Shown: positions 975 to 37,981 of the stretch, piece by piece
Numbering within the stretch: position 1 is the first letter of the stretch
Layout of the letters: each line of letters opens with the position of its first letter
Source of the DNA: Ianthella basta
Lineage: Eukaryota; Porifera; Demospongiae; Verongiida; Ianthellidae
Direction: 5' to 3'
Assembly: GCA_964019415.1 (NCBI GenBank)
Contig: OZ025886.1
Coordinates: 1,425,384 to 1,489,383, forward strand
Length of the DNA stretch: 64,000 nucleotides
Translations under genes and position numbers: made by a program
Notes under the pieces: generated by a model
Database searches by the model: none
The model's input: the letters and a program-made list of their open reading frames with translations, nothing else
What the model was told of the DNA's origin: nothing

Positions 975-8184
<7,210 letters not shown>

Positions 8185-8600: not shown

Positions 8601-8778
8601 ATAAAAATGAATTACAGCAATACAACAATAAGCTGTTTTTTTTTTTACTAAGCATTATGCTTTGATGATACTGTCAAACATGTGCATTCTTGCTAATTTC
8701 CCTTCTCTTATAAATTGTAAGTTAATATGTATTAATTATAGAAATACAACAATATAATTTCAAACCACTGGAGCCTTG

Positions 8779-9206
8779 ACGTATCCCCAGACAAGATCAT
8801 GAGAGCCAAGGCCAGCTCATTGTACCATAGTGGGATGGCAAGGAAGTTCTGATTCAGATATTGAGTATCATTTGCACAAGGCAGCTGTGGGACACTGTGG
8901 GGGAGATGTGAAGGAGGGGTGTGAGGGTGTGTACATGTGTGCGCGATGTGAGGGGAGTGGTGTACATGTGATAGGAGATCGAGGTATGTGCATGAGGGGA
9001 ATGTTGAGGGAGTAGAGTGGTTAGTGAGGGTAGGTGGCAAAGGGAGTGATGTGCAGCAGCGTGGTGCATGAAGGAGCAGTGAGATTGCTTGCTTAAATGG
9101 GAAGCAGTGAACACAATGAAACGTTGTTGGGTGGAGTCTAATTGAGCGACTGAGGTGCATCTGGATCACAAAAACAGACATCGTTTAACACATTCACACT
9201 TAGGGC
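8779..9206 (-). pseudogene. ABCG pseudogene 1: relic of the last two exons
   Basis: Matches exons 14 (about 9206-9097) and 15 (8894-8779) of the transporter genes. It is broken in three ways. The exon 14 frame hits a TAG after about 22 codons. The exon 14 donor is TT instead of GT (CTTCCCAT then TTAAGC). The exon 15 end, including the conserved KKEK tail and stop, is deleted. Residues such as FLAIPLWYNELAL resemble gene D more than A to C. No upstream exon remains; the sequence runs instead into a palindrome and the 25-bp minisatellite. Confidence 0.88.
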
Positions 9207-9211
9207 CTGCA

Positions 9212-9277
9212 TGTGGGGTAGGCCTGGGTGGGATGTACAACTATAGTATATAGTTGCACATCCCACCCTACCCCACA
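9212..9277. repeat. 66-bp near-perfect palindrome at a rearrangement junction
   Basis: TGTGGGGTAGG near 9212 pairs with CCACCCTACCCCACA at its far end, centred on TATAGTATATA. The left arm is normal intron 13 sequence following pseudo-exon 14; the right arm is the same sequence inverted. It joins directly to the minisatellite. Confidence 0.75.
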
Positions 9278-9996
9278 GCTGGTAATACACTACACTCACA
9301 CGGCTGGTAATACACTACACTCACACGGCTGGTAATACACTACACTCACACAGCTGGTAATACACTACACTCACACAGCTGGTAATACACTACACTCACA
9401 CGGCTGGTAATACACTACACTCACACAGCTGGTAATACACTACACTCACACAGCTGGTAATACACTACACTCACACAGCTGGTAATACACTACACTCACA
9501 CAGCTGGTAATACACTACACTCACACAGCTGGTAATACACTAAACTCACACAGCTGGTAATACACTACACTCACACGGCTGGTAATACACTACACTCACA
9601 CGGCTGGTAATACACTACACTCACACGGCTGGTAATACACTACACTCACACGGCTGGTAATACACTACACTCACATAGCTGGTAATACACTACACTCACA
9701 CGGCTGGTAATACACTACACTCACACAGCTGGTAATACACTACACTCACACAGCTGGTAATACACTACACTCACACAGCTGGTAATACACTACACTCACA
9801 CAGCTGGTAATAAACTACACTCACACAGCTGGTAATACACTACACTCACACAGCTGGTAATACACTACACTCACACAGCTGGTAATACACTACACTCACA
9901 CAGCTGGTAATACACTACACTCACACAGCTGGTAATACACTACACTCACACAGCTGGTAATACACTACACTCACACAGCTGGTAAAACACTACATT
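9274..9996. repeat. 25-bp minisatellite, about 29 units, intergenic
   Basis: Same 25-bp unit as in intron 10 of the genes, with frequent CAG to CGG variants. Unlike the other arrays, no exon 10 or exon 11 is recognisable beside it, so it is an orphan array left from a lost gene copy. Confidence 0.95.
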
Positions 9997-10460
9997 GAGA
10001 CTGCTAGCAATATGTCATACACCGCTCCAACTACATACCTTACTAAGATAGAGCTGTATGATAATTTGGACCCTGTGTCCAATTGACTGAGGAAGCGCAG
10101 ACTTGCTTCCATTTGTGATTGGGAACAGCTGTAGAATGAGAGAATATATGCTTCCCAGCCACTTTGTGAGCTACAATTTTGGGAGCCCCGGGAAAGTTCT
10201 GTAGAGGTAGCAAAGCTTATAGGACCTTTATGAAGATGATCATGGAAGACACAGGCCTGACAAGAGAATAACTCATAATGCTAGCTAAAGACAGAGATCA
10301 GTGGTCCTAACTTCGCAGCCATTTGTAATTAACTGTATAACTCCTCCTTGCATGTCTTGTATGTGCATGAACTGATTGATGATTGATACTAGGTCAGCAG
10401 TGTAGTGACTAACACATAGACTTCATTGTACCTTATAACAGATCCTTGCAACTGCACTAA
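9997..10460. other. Intergenic, nothing recognised
   Basis: No exon, repeat array or RNA gene recognised. The last 100 bases (through GCACTAA at 10460) are paralogous to sequence around 22900-23000, the flank of pseudogene 2. Confidence 0.6.
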
Positions 10461-11973: not shown

Positions 11974-12837
11974 TCACTTCTCCTTTTTGATTATACGGAG
12001 GTTGAAGTATGCCCAGAAAAGGATCAGGAGGATCATGAGAGCCAAGGCCAGCTCATTATACCAGAGTGGGACTTCAAGGAAGTCCTCACTCTCAAGATAC
12101 TGAGTTCCATTCACACAGGGCAGCTGTGGGACACTGTGGGAAGAGTGGTGAGGGTCCACTGAGGAAGGGTTGTGAAGGTGTACATGAGTGTGGTATGTGA
12201 GGAGAAAGGTGTATGAGGAGAATGTGTGCAAGAGGAGTAATGAGTGTGTAGACATGAGGGAAGGAGTGATGTATGTGCAGCAGTGTGGTGCATGAAGGAG
12301 CAGTGAGATTGCTTGCTTACATGGGAAGCAGTGAACACAAAGAAATGTTGGCGGGTGGAGTCATATTGATAAACGTGAGGGCATCCGGATCACATAAACA
12401 GGTGCCATCAAACTCATTCACACTTATGGCCTGCATGTGGGGTAGGGTGGGATGTGTGCACATAGTGTTGTAGATAAAGTACATATATTGTGTGTATAGC
12501 TGCAATAAGATAATAATTATAGAAATAACATGCTAGCATAATTATGGAAGAATTCCTGAACAAGTGTAAGTAATATAACCACCAAAGTACTGTAGCATGC
12601 CCATGCAGGTTCCCTTACAGTCACTGCATATTTGAATATGCTGAGGTACTGTAGCCATGACAACCACACAGATATAGATGCAAGGTTGATGAGGAAGCCC
12701 CCAAATATCTTCAGAAATGGAAAAGCAAAAATACATGTAAAATGCTCACATGCAGGCAATTGAGACCATGCACTTCACAGTCAACCCAATACAGTGCGTA
12801 TTCACACAGTGCATGCATGCACACACACAACACACAC

Positions 12838-12924
<87 letters not shown>

Positions 12925-13172
12925 CACACACACCATTGATAGCAGAAAGAGACTCGTAGTAAGTAACATGGCGGCCGTTCTGTTCCTGATAAGGGCACCA
13001 ATGGCAAAAACAAGGGATGTAGAAACAGTGGCAGTCAGGCATAAGGTGAGCAGGAAGATAAAGAACTTGGCTGCATCCAACTGAAAACCTACATATGGAA
13101 GGAGGTGTCAGTGGTGAGGGACAGGATCAGACATATAGTAAACTTTATGGATATATCATGGTCTTTGAGGTG

Positions 13173-13217
<45 letters not shown>

Positions 13218-16200
13218 ACTACCTATCATGAAGTACACAACGACAGAGTAGAAGATAACAGGAATGATGCGGAACGGGACGAGATCACATGAGACCTTGG
13301 CCAGGAAGTAGGCAGAAACTCTGTAAAATCCGCTTACATTCTCATGCCTGCATGAGATGGAATACACTACACTCCAACAGCTGGTAATTCACTGCACTCA
13401 CACAGCTGGTAATACATTGCTTTCACACAGCTGGTAATACACTACACTCACACAGCTGGTAATACACTACACTCACACAGCTGGTAATACACTACACTCA
13501 CACAGCTGGTAATACACTACACTCACACAGCTGGTAATACACTACACTCACACAGCTGGTAATACACTACACTCACACAGCTGGTAATACACTGCACTCA
13601 CACAGCTGGTAATACACTACACTCACACAGCTGGTAATACACTACACTCACACAGCTGGTAATACACTACACTCACACAGCTGGTAATACACTACACTCA
13701 CACAGCTGGTAATACACTACACTCACACAGCTGGTAATACACTACACTCACACAGCTGGTAATACACTACACTCACACAGCTGGTAATACACTACACTCA
13801 CACAGCTGGTAATACACTACACTCACACAGCTGGTAATACACTACACTCACACAGCTGGTAATACACTGCACTCACACAGCTGGTAATACACTACACTCA
13901 CATAGCTGGTAATACACTACACTCACACAGCTGGTAATACACTACACTCACACAGCTGGTAATACACTACACTCACACAGCTGGTAATACACTGCACTCA
14001 CACAGCTGGTAATACACTACACTCACACAGCTGGTAATACACTACACTCACACAGCTGGTAATACACTGCACTCACACAGCTGGTAATACACTGCACTCA
14101 CACAGCTGGTAATACACTACACTCACACAGCTGGTAATACACTACACTCACACAGCTGGTAATACACTACACTCACACAGCTGGTAATACACTACACTCA
14201 CACAGCTGGTAATACACTACACTCACACAGCTGGTAATACACTACACTCACACAGCTGGTAATACACTACACTCACACAGCTGGTAATATACACTGCACT
14301 CACACAGCTGGTAATACACTACACTCACACAGCTGGTAATATACACTGCACTCACACAGCTGGTAATACACTACACTCACACAGCTGGTAATACACTACA
14401 CTCACACGGCTGGTAATACACTGCACTCACACAGCTGGTAATACACTACACTCACACAGCTGGTAATATACACTGCACTCACACAGCTGGTAATACACTA
14501 CACTCACACAGCTGGTAATACACTACACTCACACGGCTGGTAATACACTGCACTCACACAGCTGATAATACACTGCACTCACACAGCTGGTAATACACTA
14601 CACTCACACAGTTGGTAATACACTACACTCACACAGCTGGTAATACACTACACTCACACAGCTGGTAATACACTACACTCACACAGTTGGTAATACACTA
14701 CACTCACACAGCTGGTAATACACTACACTCACACAGCTGGTAATACACTACACTCACACGGCTGGTAATACACTACACTCACACAGCTGGTAATACACTG
14801 CACTCACACAGCTGGTAATGTACTACACTCACACAGCTGGTAATACACTACACTCACACAGCTGGTAATACACTACACTCACACAGCTGGTAATACGCTA
14901 CACTCACACAGCTGGTAATACACTACACTCACACAGCTGGTAATACGCTACACTCACACAGCTGGTAATACACTACACTCACACAGCTGGTAATACACCA
15001 CACTCACATGAACTGAGCTCGCTGTTTGATAAAGGTCTCAAGGGCAGTCATGCTACCACCAAATGCCTGGTTCATGATGATTAAGAAGATTGCTCCCATC
15101 CTGTGAATGGGACAGTCATGTTAATGCTTTATGATTGTGTATGAATGTCCATGTACTTGTACAACACTACCTTCATACGTACATGTATCTAAGAATGTGC
15201 ACGTGTGTGTGTGTGTGTGCACATGTACATTTACATGGCACTTCCCCATATACGCACCTGTCATTAAGGCCATTGACATCGTGTTTGAGTTGGAAGTAGA
15301 TTATTCCAAGTACGACCGAATACGCGACTATGAAGATAACCTGAAGCAAGATAGGAAGAAGTTGAGGCAACAGATACTGTAGTTACTCATAGCTACCTAA
15401 TGCAGTTGTAGCTAATTGTGGTTGTGTTCATTAAATTTTGTATGCAGAATGACTATAATATATGATTTCATGGAGCCAACAAGGAGAGATGTGTGGGTGT
15501 GTGATGTAATTCAGTACTGCATTCACCTGCATAGAACTTCCAAATGGGTTTCTCAATATATTCAGCCAATTACGCCACACAAGGACAATCAGCTATCAGC
15601 AGATGTGAAGCAAGGGTGGGGAGGGAGAGTGAGGATGCACGCATTAAAGAGGATCAGAATAATGAACAGCACGTGGTTGTATTGGTACTATTATAGAATG
15701 GGCTAGAGCTTAAATGCTAATACAGTCTTTACCTACATGTATGTACTTTATAGCTCTGTGTTCAAATGTACAGGAGATAGCTATAGGTGGATCGCATTCA
15801 CAGCATCACAACAATCAATTATCATATATAACACAGGAGGCTATATGCCACTGCACTTCATAATGTTGCGTGTTACTTGCATACCTGCCAGGGGAAGGAG
15901 GTGCTGTAGCGTATGGCCTTCAACTTTGTATCTTGGTTGTTTCTGTGGTCATCAGCAACAAAGTCTACTTGTTTCATCACCTCCTGGTGCTCTGCAGATG
16001 ATTTGAACTCTGCAGCTAGGCTTGTTTGTGCCACTGCAAGTTCAGTGGGTATTGAAGAAGAGAGGGGAAATAAGATACACTATGATATAATTATAGAAGC
16101 CCAGTCTGCCACTGGAATCATGTACAGTACATGTGAGCAAGATAACGGTGTATTCCATGCCTGAGTGGTCAGAGTATGTGGACAAGTAAATACTTATACA

Positions 16201-19200
16201 CAGTTATACAGAGGAACTTGTCTAAGATGGTCACTGAGTTAGGCAGCCACCTCTCTAATACAGCCAGCCTCCTTGGCCCCTAATAGCGCCAAACATTGAA
16301 CCTCTGTAGGGCATCCACCTCTCTATATAGATGCCAGTTAATCAGAATGGGCCAACAGGTGGTTGTCTTAGACAGGCTCCACTGTACACATATACAATTG
16401 TTTCATATTTTACTGTATCTATATATACACCAAGTGTGAGTATACATTTATACAATCAATGTTACCATAGATATGGACTCAAGAAGTACATACAGTATTT
16501 TTGTTCATGTACACGTACACAATGTATGCATGTTTACACTAACATGCAATGCTATAATAATTATGTACATAATTAAATAGCTTGAGCAGTTCGCATGCAA
16601 TGTCGCTATGTAGTTAGCAATAATTATTAGGAGAAAGTTAGGCATGCATGCTATGATCAAACCAGTAGTCCAATAGATGTGTTCCCACCTGGTGTGCTTT
16701 TCTGCAAGGTTTCCGGTGCATCCAAGGTCTTCTGCAAGGCTGCCACCTCATTCCGAATGATTATATCAAGGAAGAAGTCAGCCGGGTTGTCGTGTTCCTC
16801 ACACTCATAGCCATGTGCTGTAAAGTAGTCCAGTGCCCTGTTGGCAGGACCGTGGTACACCATGTCTCCCTTGGACAGGAGAGTTATGGAGTCAAAGAGT
16901 TTGAAGATGGAGTACCGAGGCTGGTGAATGGAGAGGATGATGGTGTGTCCTTTCAAGCTTAGTCTGTGCATGGAGGGTCAATTGATGAGAAGGAGGAAAC
17001 CTAGTTAATGCTGGTGGCAAAACATTATATGCAACGCAATTGCAGAAGAATTCTGGCAATTACAGCATTTTATTACAGAGAGAGGGAGGAGGAAGAGGAG
17101 GAGGAGGAGGAGGAGGAGGAGGAGGAGGAGGAGGAGGAGGAAGAGGAGGAGGAGGAGGAGGAGGAGGAGGAGGAGGAGGAGGAGGAGGAGGAGGTGGTGG
17201 AGGAGGAGGAGGAGGAGGAGGTGGAGGAGGAGGAGGAGGAGGAGGAGGAGGAGGAGGAGGAGGAGGAGGTGGAGGAGGAGGAGGAGGAGGTTGGGGGCTC
17301 ACATCTTGAGGAGCTGCACAACAGAGGTGGCAGTGGTGGCGTCCAACCCAGTGGTGGGTTCATCCAGGTAGAGGACTTTGGGAGAGATGATCAACTCAAT
17401 GCCAATATTGCAGCGCTTGCGTTCTCCACCAGAAACACCTCGAATGTACTCTGTGCCAACCTGCAGACCAGAGAACACATGCATGTGGAGCACAGGAAGA
17501 CATGCAACTATGACTCACCGACAAAAGTACTGTGACATAAACTGCACACAATTTACATAATGTTACAAAGGAAGCAGCGGTGTTTAAATACATTAGATCA
17601 ACTCTTGCTAGCTCAGCTCTAACCAGTTACAAGTAGTATAATAGTTAGAGCACAATTGTTTTTGCACATGCAGATGATATTGGTTGGGATGTTGTCCTGC
17701 ACTTGCCTTCAGTTTGTGCATTACAGAGCAGAGGGATGGTATTGCATCATCCAAGTGAGCACATTAATTAACCTATTATCCACCAATTTGAACCAATAAT
17801 GACACAATTCTGCGAAATGTCAACACTCATGGAGTGCCCTTCCGCACCTACAAGCTGCCCATGCAAAGGCTTGGCATGTAGGGACATTTTGCTGATGACA
17901 AACACCTCCCTAGAATTGGCTAGGAGGAATGAAAATGAACCAAAAGGCAAAAGTTAAATCATTCTATGGCGTCCTAAAAGTAGCTGTACCAGAGACTACA
18001 CTACAGGTAGGTATTACAGAATGGGAGATTTGTTTGTGGAATGAGTGAACCACTAACAGCTAGAGCTGTTGCTTCTGCTGCCAAACCAATAGTACCAGTG
18101 GTACCAGTTGCAAAACCATGCAATAGGAAGGACAAGGTATAGGAAAGCAGACCACAGCACATAAACATAAAATGGCATGTTCCCTCACCAAGTCATCTAT
18201 CTCTCACTGCACCTTCAACAACGTTACAGCTTAATTTACAGCCAAGTAATTACTACCTGTACGTTTAGAAATGCTAGTTGTGTTTGCTAGTGTTCTGCAA
18301 TGTCCAAGTAATGCACACTTAAGTGCACATATGCAGTCTATGAATACAGATTTCTGCACAGCTGCATGGTTGGCCATCAACTGATCAGTAACATTACAAG
18401 TCCCGTCATCATTCTTTTGCCATATTCTAAAAGATTACTCAAGATCTGCATACTCCAGATCTATATACATACAACATGACATTGACCATAAATAGCAGGC
18501 CCACTAGGTTTAAAGGTGTTCTCCTCCCATCAGCACCTCCCACCTCCATTGATCCCATTCTCCCTACCTCTTCCCTCCCTCAACCCTCCACCCTCCCACC
18601 ACCCTCCCTTCCACAATCCTTCCTTCTATCTCCTTCCTACTCCTTCCTAGACAATTTGCATCACCATACCATTGTGTTTTGGCACTCCGTCAGTCCCAAT
18701 TCTTCAATCACACCGTCCACCTTCTCCTTTCGCTGTTTGAATGAGTAGTTAGAAGGAAGGCGCAGGGCAGCTGAGAAACTCAAGTTCTCCCTCACAGTCA
18801 ATGTTCCCATCACCACATCATCCTACACAGAAGAGGAGCGATGGCTAGTCACATACGTCTACTGAACATGTGCATGAATGCGTGGACAGATGGATGGACG
18901 AACCTGGACCACATATCCTGATGCACACTTGAAGTTCTTAGGTAGCCTCTGTCCATTGATCAACACCTCCCCTGTCACCCCCTTGCTACTCTTGCGGCCA
19001 GCTAGGATGTCCAACAGACTGCAGGGAGAAATGGGTAACTATGAAATTATATACGCTTGTTGAAAATCATCAGGCCGGCACGCAGGGTTTTGAATAGGGG
19101 GTTACATTCTGAACAGAAATGTTCGTAGGCAAATTTTCCCAGTCAATGGTGTCACAACAAATGGCAAACAGTGTAAATGGTGATACACGCACACTAGAAC

Positions 19201-20418
19201 TGCTGGAACAGAGCAACAAATGAGCTTCAAAGAAACAATACTTCTGGTCCTCAATAAGGACTTGGACTACCAGAAAATGGATAGGTTCTTAGTTTTCTGT
19301 CCCACAGACCCTGGATCTAAAAGGGGTTCGTATGAACCTAACAACCCCCCCTGTGTACAAGGAGGGCTTCACCAGGGCTGCCATGGGTCAGCAGTGACAT
19401 CCTTGCATTGTATGTGTAATTATACAACCACATGAATGTGGTGGTCTGTACAATACCATATGCACTCAATACACCACACAGTTTTGCCTGAAGTGAGTGG
19501 CTTGCATGGTGTGGACAGCAAGACTCTGCAACCAATCACAAGCAAATACGGCATTGGACAAGGATTGGTATTAATGTTGTTTAAATCAATGCCATTGATT
19601 GCGTGATTGAAGATCTGAAGAGAACTAATGACAATTACTACAGGTACTAGAAACTCTAAAATGACTGTAGTGGTGAGCAAGTCTTGTTCAGACACAATCA
19701 CATGGAATGCACATGCACATGGGGTGCACACATACAGCAAACACTTGCGCACACCATGCACACTGTGAAGTGCGTGTACAGTGTCACGTATCAGAATTGC
19801 AACAGTAAGATAGTTTAATAAATGCAACTCACGAGGTCTTCCCTCCCCCTGTTGGTCCCAAAATGGCATTGAGCCCTGGTTCCATCAAACCACTGCAAGG
19901 ATGCGGAGCAAACAGTAGGAGAAATATCCTTAAACCAGAGATTTATCCTCTATGCTCTTATGTGTGGCAACATGATAAAGAAGTAAAGTGTGCAAAGGGA
20001 GATGAAGGGGAGAAGGCTCAGAGAGACAGAGACCTATATAGTCCTTAAGCCGGGTTGACACTGCTATTGCACTATTATACTTATGCATGTTTAATGTATG
20101 TGTCTGCCTATACTCCGGTCCAGTATTGACATGCTCTGCACTCGAATTATACGTGATAACACACACGTGTCCCCCCCCCCCCCCCACACACACACAGTAT
20201 TACCTCAAGTCGTTCAGGATGTGTTTTTCGCCGGCAGGAATGATGCCAAATTTTCTCTGACGAATGGAGTAGGAGACATGATGGAAGGTCAACACGCTGC
20301 GGTCTTCCGTGGTCCTAAACTCTGAAACATTCTTCAGCTCGAGTCCAGCCTTCAACAGTGGTGCCTTGTCGTGGGCTACTGCGCCGTAGTCTGGTGCAGT
20401 GTCAGCTAGCGACGACAT
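11974..20418 (-). CDS. ABCG2: ABCG2-like half-transporter, gene B (15 exons, 668 aa)
   Basis: Same family and exon plan as gene A. Exons: 20418-20204, 19892-19833, 19018-18904, 18822-18670, 17460-17303, 16963-16689, 16033-15885, 15592-15527, 15340-15258, 15100-15008, 13347-13223, 13088-12934, 12708-12619, 12430-12321, 12133-11974. Every exon has the same length and phase as in A, total 2007 nt with no stop. The nucleotide-binding motifs are intact ([29 protein letters not shown]). Differences include SMTALETFIKQ in exon 10 where A has QTAIELFIRE, and a Thr to Ile change at the exon 5/6 junction. Intron 10 is inflated to 1.66 kb by the minisatellite and intron 5 by a GGA tract. It appears functional. 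Confidence 0.93.
12826..12933. repeat. (CA)n microsatellite containing the exon 12 donor, gene B
   Basis: In gene sense exon 12 ends CAATG and the intron opens directly as GTGTGTGTGTTGTGTG, so the splice donor is itself part of the GT tract. Confidence 0.93.
13173..13217. repeat. (TG)n microsatellite, intron 11 of gene B
   Basis: Short TG tract starting about 7 nt past the exon 11 donor in gene sense. Confidence 0.93.
13377..15007. repeat. 25-bp minisatellite, about 65 units, intron 10 of gene B
   Basis: Longest array of the window. Sub-variants (ACTGCACT for ACTACACT, CGG for CAG, a TAATATACACT insertion repeated several times near 14290-14470) suggest block-wise amplification. The right end is the real exon 10 donor at 15007 (gene sense GTGAGTGTGG). 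Confidence 0.96.
17092..17291. repeat. (GGA)n tract, intron 5 of gene B
   Basis: About 65 GGA units with GGT and GAA interruptions; starts about 12 nt beyond the exon 5 donor in gene sense. Confidence 0.95.
20171..20196. repeat. Poly(C)/(CA) tract, intron 1 of gene B
   Basis: In gene sense the exon 1 donor GTAATACTG is followed by a few TG units and a run of about 15 G. Genes A and D have more than 60 TG units at the same place. Confidence 0.9.
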
Positions 20419-21285: not shown

Positions 21286-22660
21286 TCACTTCTCCTTTTT
21301 GATTATGTGGAGGTTAACGTATCCCCAGACAAGGAGCACAAAGATCATGACAGCCAAGGCCAGCTCATTGTACCAGAGTGGGATGGCAAGGAAGTCCTCA
21401 TTCTCAAGATACTGAGTGCCATTCACACAGGGCAGCTGTGGGACACTGTGGGAAGAGTAGTGAAGGAGGGTGTGAGGGTGTGTACATGTGCATGTGCATG
21501 GTGTGAGGGGAGTGGTGAGATTGCTTGCTTACATGGAAAGCAGTGAACACAAAGACACGTTGGTAGGCTGAGTCAATATTGAGTGACTGCATGGAGGGCA
21601 TCTGGATTACATAAACAGACATCGTTCAACTCATTCACACTTAGGGCCTGCATGTGGGGTAGGATGTGCAACTATATAGTGGTATATATAAGATGCATAG
21701 AATCATTGTGTACATGGTGCACAATGATAAAATAATACAGATAAAAAGCATACAAGCATATGCAGGCAATTCTGAACAAGAGTGATAGTAATATTAATCA
21801 TCGATTAATGCAAAGTAGCATGCCCATGCATGCAGGTTCCTTTACAGCCACAGCATATTTGAACAGGCCGAAGTATTGTATCCATGACAACCACACAGAT
21901 AGAGAGCTGAGGTTGACAAAGAAGCCCCCAAATAGCTACAGTAAATGGAAATGACAAAAAGACACATGCAGGCAAATGAGACCATGCAACTCTATGTCAG
22001 AGCATGTGCAAGAACTCGATACAGTGTGTAAGCGCACACATGCACACACATGCACGCGCAAACACACACACAAACACACACAAACACACACACACACAAA
22101 CACCCACAAACACACCCACACACCATTGTCAATACAAAGCAGCTTGTAGTGAGTAACATGACCTGGAAACCTATGTAATAAGGCGAGGAAGGACAGGAGC
22201 AGTCACTATAATAAAATATATTGCAATTGATTTTAAATATATTGATTTTAAATATACCATCATGGTCTTTGAGGGGAATATTTTGTGCGCGCGTGTGTAA
22301 TAGACTGTATAGTGGTACAAACATTCATACACAATTGTACAATATGTATGTACAAACATGCCAGGGGAAGGAGGTGCGGTATCAAGCAGCCGTCTCTCAT
22401 GCAGTTTGGCTTGTTCTATGCATGGGCATCAGCAATTGGGTCTACTTAATTGTTTCATTACTTCCTGGTGCTCTGCAGCTAAGGTACTTCCTGGCCTGTG
22501 CAAGTGGCCATCTTGGCAAATTGTTCTGACATGGCCTGACCACCTTTAAAGTGCTTCCTTCAGGCCTGTTGTGGTGGATTCATCCAGGTAGAGGATATTC
22601 TGGGAGAGATGATCAGCTCCAGGCTGATAGTGCAGTGCTTGCGTACAGAGTGTCTGTACA
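21286..22660 (-). pseudogene. ABCG pseudogene 2: compressed, multi-deleted copy
   Basis: Exon 15 (21445-21286) is intact and ends in KKEK. Exon 14 (about 21640-21533) has a premature TGA after about 24 codons. Exon 13 (near 21935-21845) is readable. Exon 12 (near 22170-22120) has lost about 100 bp of its middle. Exons 8 to 11 and 6 are missing. A frameshifted exon 7 relic (22510-22356) and an exon 5 relic (22660-22560) remain; in the latter Walker B reads LYLDEST instead of LYLDEPT. Exons 1 to 4 are absent. The tail is most like gene D and pseudogene 1. Confidence 0.88.

Positions 22661-23493: not shown

Positions 23494-31069
<7,576 letters not shown>

Positions 31070-31883: not shown

Positions 31884-37981
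<6,098 letters not shown>

Follow-up and report, generated by a model that had tools for sequence, protein, structure and literature searches.

The window analyzed here is a stretch of 64,000 nucleotides from the sponge Ianthella basta (C19:1425384-1489383), and genome-wide searches covered 209 Mb in 96 contigs. Four tandem ABCG2-like genes lie in the window, all on its minus strand: gene A (975-8181), gene B (11974-20418), gene C (23494-31069) and gene D (31884-37981). The splice sites of gene D were set by eye from GT/AG ends and reading frame, and those of A to C by alignment to D. All four 15-exon frames are open and encode 667, 668, 668 and 677 aa for A, B, C and D as modelled; in gene A, an in-frame ATG is located immediately 5' of the modelled start. 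We call the genes ABCG2-like transporters because the gene B protein carries ABC_tran and ABC2_membrane domains, and ABCG2 is the nearest solved relative of the B protein and of a 72-aa piece of D. A search with the gene B protein scored 7,994 candidates and returned 4,189 matches. Among the best 120 of these 4,189, identity was 60% to a JGI protein, about 47-51% to ABCG2-like proteins of the sponges Dysidea, Halichondria, Amphimedon and Ephydatia, and about 44-51% to vertebrate, mollusc, cnidarian and echinoderm proteins.

Other features of the cluster include an exact 27-bp tandem duplication in exon 4 of gene D (36483-36536), which adds nine in-frame residues (RENLSFSAA twice). A GGA microsatellite (plus strand) is found directly beyond exon 5 in genes A (5261-5328), B (17085-17290) and D (35652-36037), and is longest in D with up to 128.7 triplets. 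Besides the gene remnant discussed below, a second ABCG2-like remnant (21289-22643, minus strand) matches parts of exons 5, 7 and 12 together with exons 13-15, and has no 25-bp array.

Intron 10 of each gene is filled by a tandem repeat. The intron measures 177 nt in gene A (2880-3056), 1660 nt in B (13348-15007), 979 nt in C (25014-25992) and 354 nt in D (33638-33991), all on the minus strand. In gene B it separates exon 10 (15008-15100, minus strand) from exon 11 (13223-13347, minus strand), is 99% array, and exceeds every other intron of the four genes (56 in total; second longest, 1209 nt). TRF places array B at 13361-15008 with a period of 25, 65.7 copies and 95% matches. The 25-nt unit is GTGAGTGTAGTGTATTACCAGCTGT, and together with degenerate end units the repeat spans from +1 to 13 nt before the acceptor. 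With these end units counted, the repeat fraction of intron 10 is 0.927, 0.992, 0.987 and 0.963 in A, B, C and D, respectively.

A preliminary description of this DNA estimated about 6, 65, 38 and 13 donor motifs in A, B, C and D, which agrees closely with the 6, 64, 39 and 14 copies of GTGAGT that we counted. It also proposed that every unit carries GTGAGT and ends in TTACCAG. Intron 10 of B does hold 64 GTGAGT and 62 TTACCAG in gene sense, but not every unit conforms, as one reads GTGAAA and the unit nearest the acceptor reads TGGAGT. A fifth array, here called x (9274-9994, minus strand, 28 GTGAGT), had been missed. When 25-mer units of the five arrays were compared, 97/146 were equal to the consensus; eight units of other length or in terminal position were set aside.

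The first GTGAGT of intron 10 in gene sense is by homology the authentic donor (TTCAT|GTGAGT, phase 2). Exon 10 ends in TTCAT and exon 11, preceded in gene B by the acceptor ATCTCATGCAG, starts with (A/G)CATGAG; joined, they encode QF(I/M)HEN in all four copies. The exon 10/11 product of gene D aligns across the junction (F-I-H-E) with ABCG2 chains of the PDB, which we take to be human. This alignment bears out the earlier assignment of the authentic donor to the last unit of the array, which is last in plus-strand coordinates and first in gene sense.

The repeat is restricted to this locus. Genome-wide, all 145 matches to the 25-mer with up to three mismatches lie inside the window on the minus strand, as do all 129 strict 31-mers, and the reversed-pattern control for the 25-mer gave no match in the genome; this placement rests on the genome and the window giving identical counts. 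Since no copy exists beyond the window at up to three mismatches, the idea of a mobile or introner-like element was rejected. In contrast to the unit, the motif by itself is unremarkable: GTGAGT-bearing repeats are frequent in the genome, with 7,497 spaced GTGAGT triples where the reversed pattern gives 9,200 (overlaps included). What stands out is that the start of the repeat coincides exactly with a real donor and that the intron is filled by it. Elsewhere, at C9:481352-646832, twelve near-identical 25-mers share one strand at intervals of about 5-21 kb and point to a separate family of tandem genes or repeats.

The first donor has almost no advantage over the decoys in U1 pairing energy. 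In a fixed register against the U1 5' end, the real donor pairs at -5.1 kcal/mol and the decoys at -5.0 kcal/mol, while the 52 other donors of the four genes have a median of -6.1 kcal/mol (range -10.3 to -0.8). When the register was left free, the energies were again nearly equal (-7.5 or -6.7 for the real donor, -7.4 or -6.6 for a decoy).

Exon 10 ends in AT and the intron begins with GTGA, which makes ATG TGA; every GTGAGT decoy donor, and likewise retention of the intron, therefore leads to a stop at the same codon. The predicted product of 455, 456, 456 or 465 aa (A, B, C and D) compares with 667, 668, 668 or 677 aa for the normal protein. As any later donor or retention hits this immediate stop, decoy donors would only be able to waste transcripts and not make new proteins. 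The stop precedes several exon junctions, and the truncated transcripts would thus presumably be lost to NMD. On the acceptor side, one TTACCAG decoy per gene would still reach the normal stop, with an insertion.

In an alternative reading, the units are copy-number-dependent poison donors: the decoys would compete with the first donor, a longer array would lower the productive fraction, and array length would set transporter dose. The equal U1 pairing energy of the decoys, the same-codon truncation in all decoy-donor products, and the existence of four paralogues with 5, 13, 38 and 63 decoys are in line with such competition. There is also a precedent in human IFI6 (6-16), where two of the downstream units serve as donors and make three mRNA species possible (PMC4526556). 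However, 64 equal donors would leave gene B with about 1/64 productive transcripts, which is at odds with its open frame.

If the long array had cost gene B its function, its downstream exons might show decay. Over the six gene pairs, omega was 0.51 (0.39-0.67) for the first ten exons and 0.68 (0.48-0.99) for exons 11-15. In exons 11-15, pairs with B (0.68, 0.47-1.04) were no higher than pairs without B (0.68, 0.47-0.98), which speaks indirectly against poison donors; the pairs share lineages and their omega values are not independent. Gene B shows no sign of decay in exons 11-15, in what is a weak test. Among pairs with B, 13/400 bootstrap replicates for exons 11-15 were at or above 1. Constraint on exons 11-15 is itself weakly shown, given that the bootstrap interval extends to 1.04, that A-B alone gives 0.91, and that omega is 0.68 against 0.51 in exons 1-10.

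Conservation of the donor motif within the arrays was assessed as well. Only 2/17 substitution types fall in the GTGAGT hexamer (binomial P 0.19), and both are in one unit; counted as a single event, 1/16 types fall there (P 0.075). The latter value leans towards poison donors, but conservation of the hexamer does not clearly exceed that of the unit's other bases, although some conservation is compatible with P 0.075. Selection keeping the donor hexamer was not accepted, as neither count is significant. Overall, we regard competition by poison donors as doubtful. The more specific proposal of a heritable dial, where each added unit would be one more U1-competent poison donor and copy number would set productive splicing and dose for each paralogue, seems to us distinctly unlikely.

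Recursive splicing proceeds at ratchet points (AG|GT). The preliminary description suggested recursive or nested splicing, i.e., stepwise removal of the intron via the TTACCAG and GTGAGT of the units, and the consensus unit does contain both motifs, so that donor and acceptor-like sequences alternate along the intron as in recursively spliced introns. However, no AGGT occurs in intron 10 of A to D, which leaves no zero-length ratchet exon; in the consensus unit, CAG and GTGAGT are 4 nt apart (CTGT), and a single unit would be an intron of 21 nt. The acceptors are also poor: the pyrimidine fraction before the consensus unit CAG is 0.44, against 0.67-0.72 before the intron 10 acceptors and a median of 0.78 (range 0.50-0.94) for the 52 other acceptors. 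With no AGGT and acceptors below the weakest of the 52, recursive or nested splicing was rejected as extremely improbable.

The array may contribute to the branch point of intron 10. The yUnAy motif at -50 to -15 is absent from intron 10 in all four copies and present in 32/52 other introns. A relaxed branch motif at -38, within the last full unit, is found in all four introns 10, and 45/52 other introns have one; this weakly suggests that the array may supply the branch point.

We also considered folding of the array RNA, which could hide the decoys, bring the intron ends together and be selected for structure. Compared with 60 dinucleotide shuffles apiece, folding was better in introns A (z -4.1) and D (z -4.4), and introns B and C each outperformed 8/8 shuffles. 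Among the donors of intron D, the first shows the least pairing (0.38 unpaired vs 0.18-0.30). Yet tandem arrays of shuffled units, which are the fitter control, folded as well or better in 75/300 dinucleotide-shuffled and 112/300 base-shuffled cases. Special RNA folding, strong against whole-intron shuffles and ordinary against tandem shuffled units, was thus set aside, and selection for structure appears very improbable.

Array x lies ahead of exons 14-15 of a gene remnant in which exon 14 carries a stop. Exon 10 matches in the window are confined to genes A to D, with none beside array x, and neither TTCATGTGAG nor RAQF was found in the 610 bases upstream of it. Array x shares two non-consensus unit types with array B. 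Array x has been amplified even though no authentic donor adjoins it, which suggests that the repeat can grow or be maintained independently of a functional splice site. The remnant itself (8732-10280, minus strand) matches exons 14-15 only, with its own 28-unit array, and contains an inverted repeat of the end of intron 13 between the array and exon 14, which suggests a fold-back rearrangement.

The persistence of array x in a gene remnant also bears on the idea that the array acts as DNA, with the splice motifs as passengers. CAGCTG, which is presumably an E-box, occurs 6, 59, 37 and 13 times in introns 10 of A, B, C and D, as might be expected of an E-box cluster or another intronic regulatory element. 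Against this, CAGCTG is a short motif of 6 bases and array x persists where the gene does not, and we find a regulatory role of the array very improbable.

The origin of the array was approached through a paralogue. The exon 10/11 peptide gave ten protein matches, of which eight correspond to the four genes in the window, one to a paralogue on the same contig and one to a more distant match on C16. The paralogue exon (C19:1756429-1756554) is 298-328 kb from the window genes and has the same phase-2 junction and the same donor, TTCAT|GTGAGT, whose 11 bases (TTCATGTGAGT) are identical. Its intron, 280 nt long, contains a single GTGAGT and lacks the 25-bp array. The array is common to all four copies A to D. 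A junction, phase and donor shared with this array-free paralogue indicate that the donor probably existed before the repeat. The earlier suggestion that the array arose by duplication of the intron start is likewise the likeliest origin, given one array-free paralogue that shares TTCAT|GTGAGT and the phase. Past GTGAGT, the paralogue intron is unlike the 25-nt unit, and the evidence for the seed would hence consist of six intron bases and their exon context in one paralogue. Gain of a new intron at this site was considered as well; the phase-2 intron and donor in the array-free paralogue, a single one, argue against it.

Our preferred account is ordinary minisatellite growth from the intron start, with the first donor normally used, and we hold it to be probable with moderate confidence. 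A phase-2 intron of an ancestral ABCG2-like gene would already have carried the donor TTCAT|GTGAGT, and its first bases would have been the seed of the 25-bp tandem repeat. The repeat would then have expanded, before the tandem gene duplication or in its course, to occupy the intron from +1 up to a point 13 nt short of the acceptor, and slippage or unequal exchange would have let array lengths drift to 6, 14, 39 and 64 donor copies. Exon 10 would fix the first donor as the one normally joined to the single good acceptor right behind the array, and the expected junction in every copy is from the first GTGAGT to CTCATGCAG. Use of a later donor, or retention, would meet the immediate stop (AT|G TGA) and give one truncated, probably NMD-sensitive product. 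The near-equal U1 pairing energies of first donor and decoys, and the lack of a yUnAy motif at -50 to -15 in all four introns 10, count against this account. The decoy array is real, and it is probably mostly ignored in splicing.

Human IFI6 appears to be the closest precedent. Its repeat is located at the exon end, and an IFI6 minisatellite with splice donor units was reportedly described by Turri et al. in 1995, in NAR 23:1854. In later reports, the IFI6 minisatellite is cited for interference with splicing (PMC3618361) and its repeat-unit donors yield different protein isoforms (PMC4526556). As in IFI6, where minisatellite units act as donors, the repeat here starts at what appears to be the authentic donor and its units repeat the donor motif. 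It differs in that later donors would lead to an immediate stop and not to altered protein isoforms, and in that the repeat fills a whole intron and forms a series over four paralogues. A related mechanism is intron gain through tandem duplication of a segment with AGGT, in which splice signals are likewise copied along with the DNA at a splice site (PMC4974935); the present intron is, however, probably older than its repeat and holds no AGGT. A literature search, mainly of openly accessible papers, found no second donor-bearing minisatellite intron, which is no proof of absence.

The locus offers a natural test of how the spliceosome picks the first of up to 64 near-identical donors. In this series of four paralogues, the exon 10 edge and the acceptor are almost identical and the number of decoys runs from 5 to 63; any wrong donor would lead to one and the same truncation, which is easy to score. 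Invariable use of the first donor would mean that position and exon context outweigh U1 pairing; otherwise, repeat length would tune gene dose.
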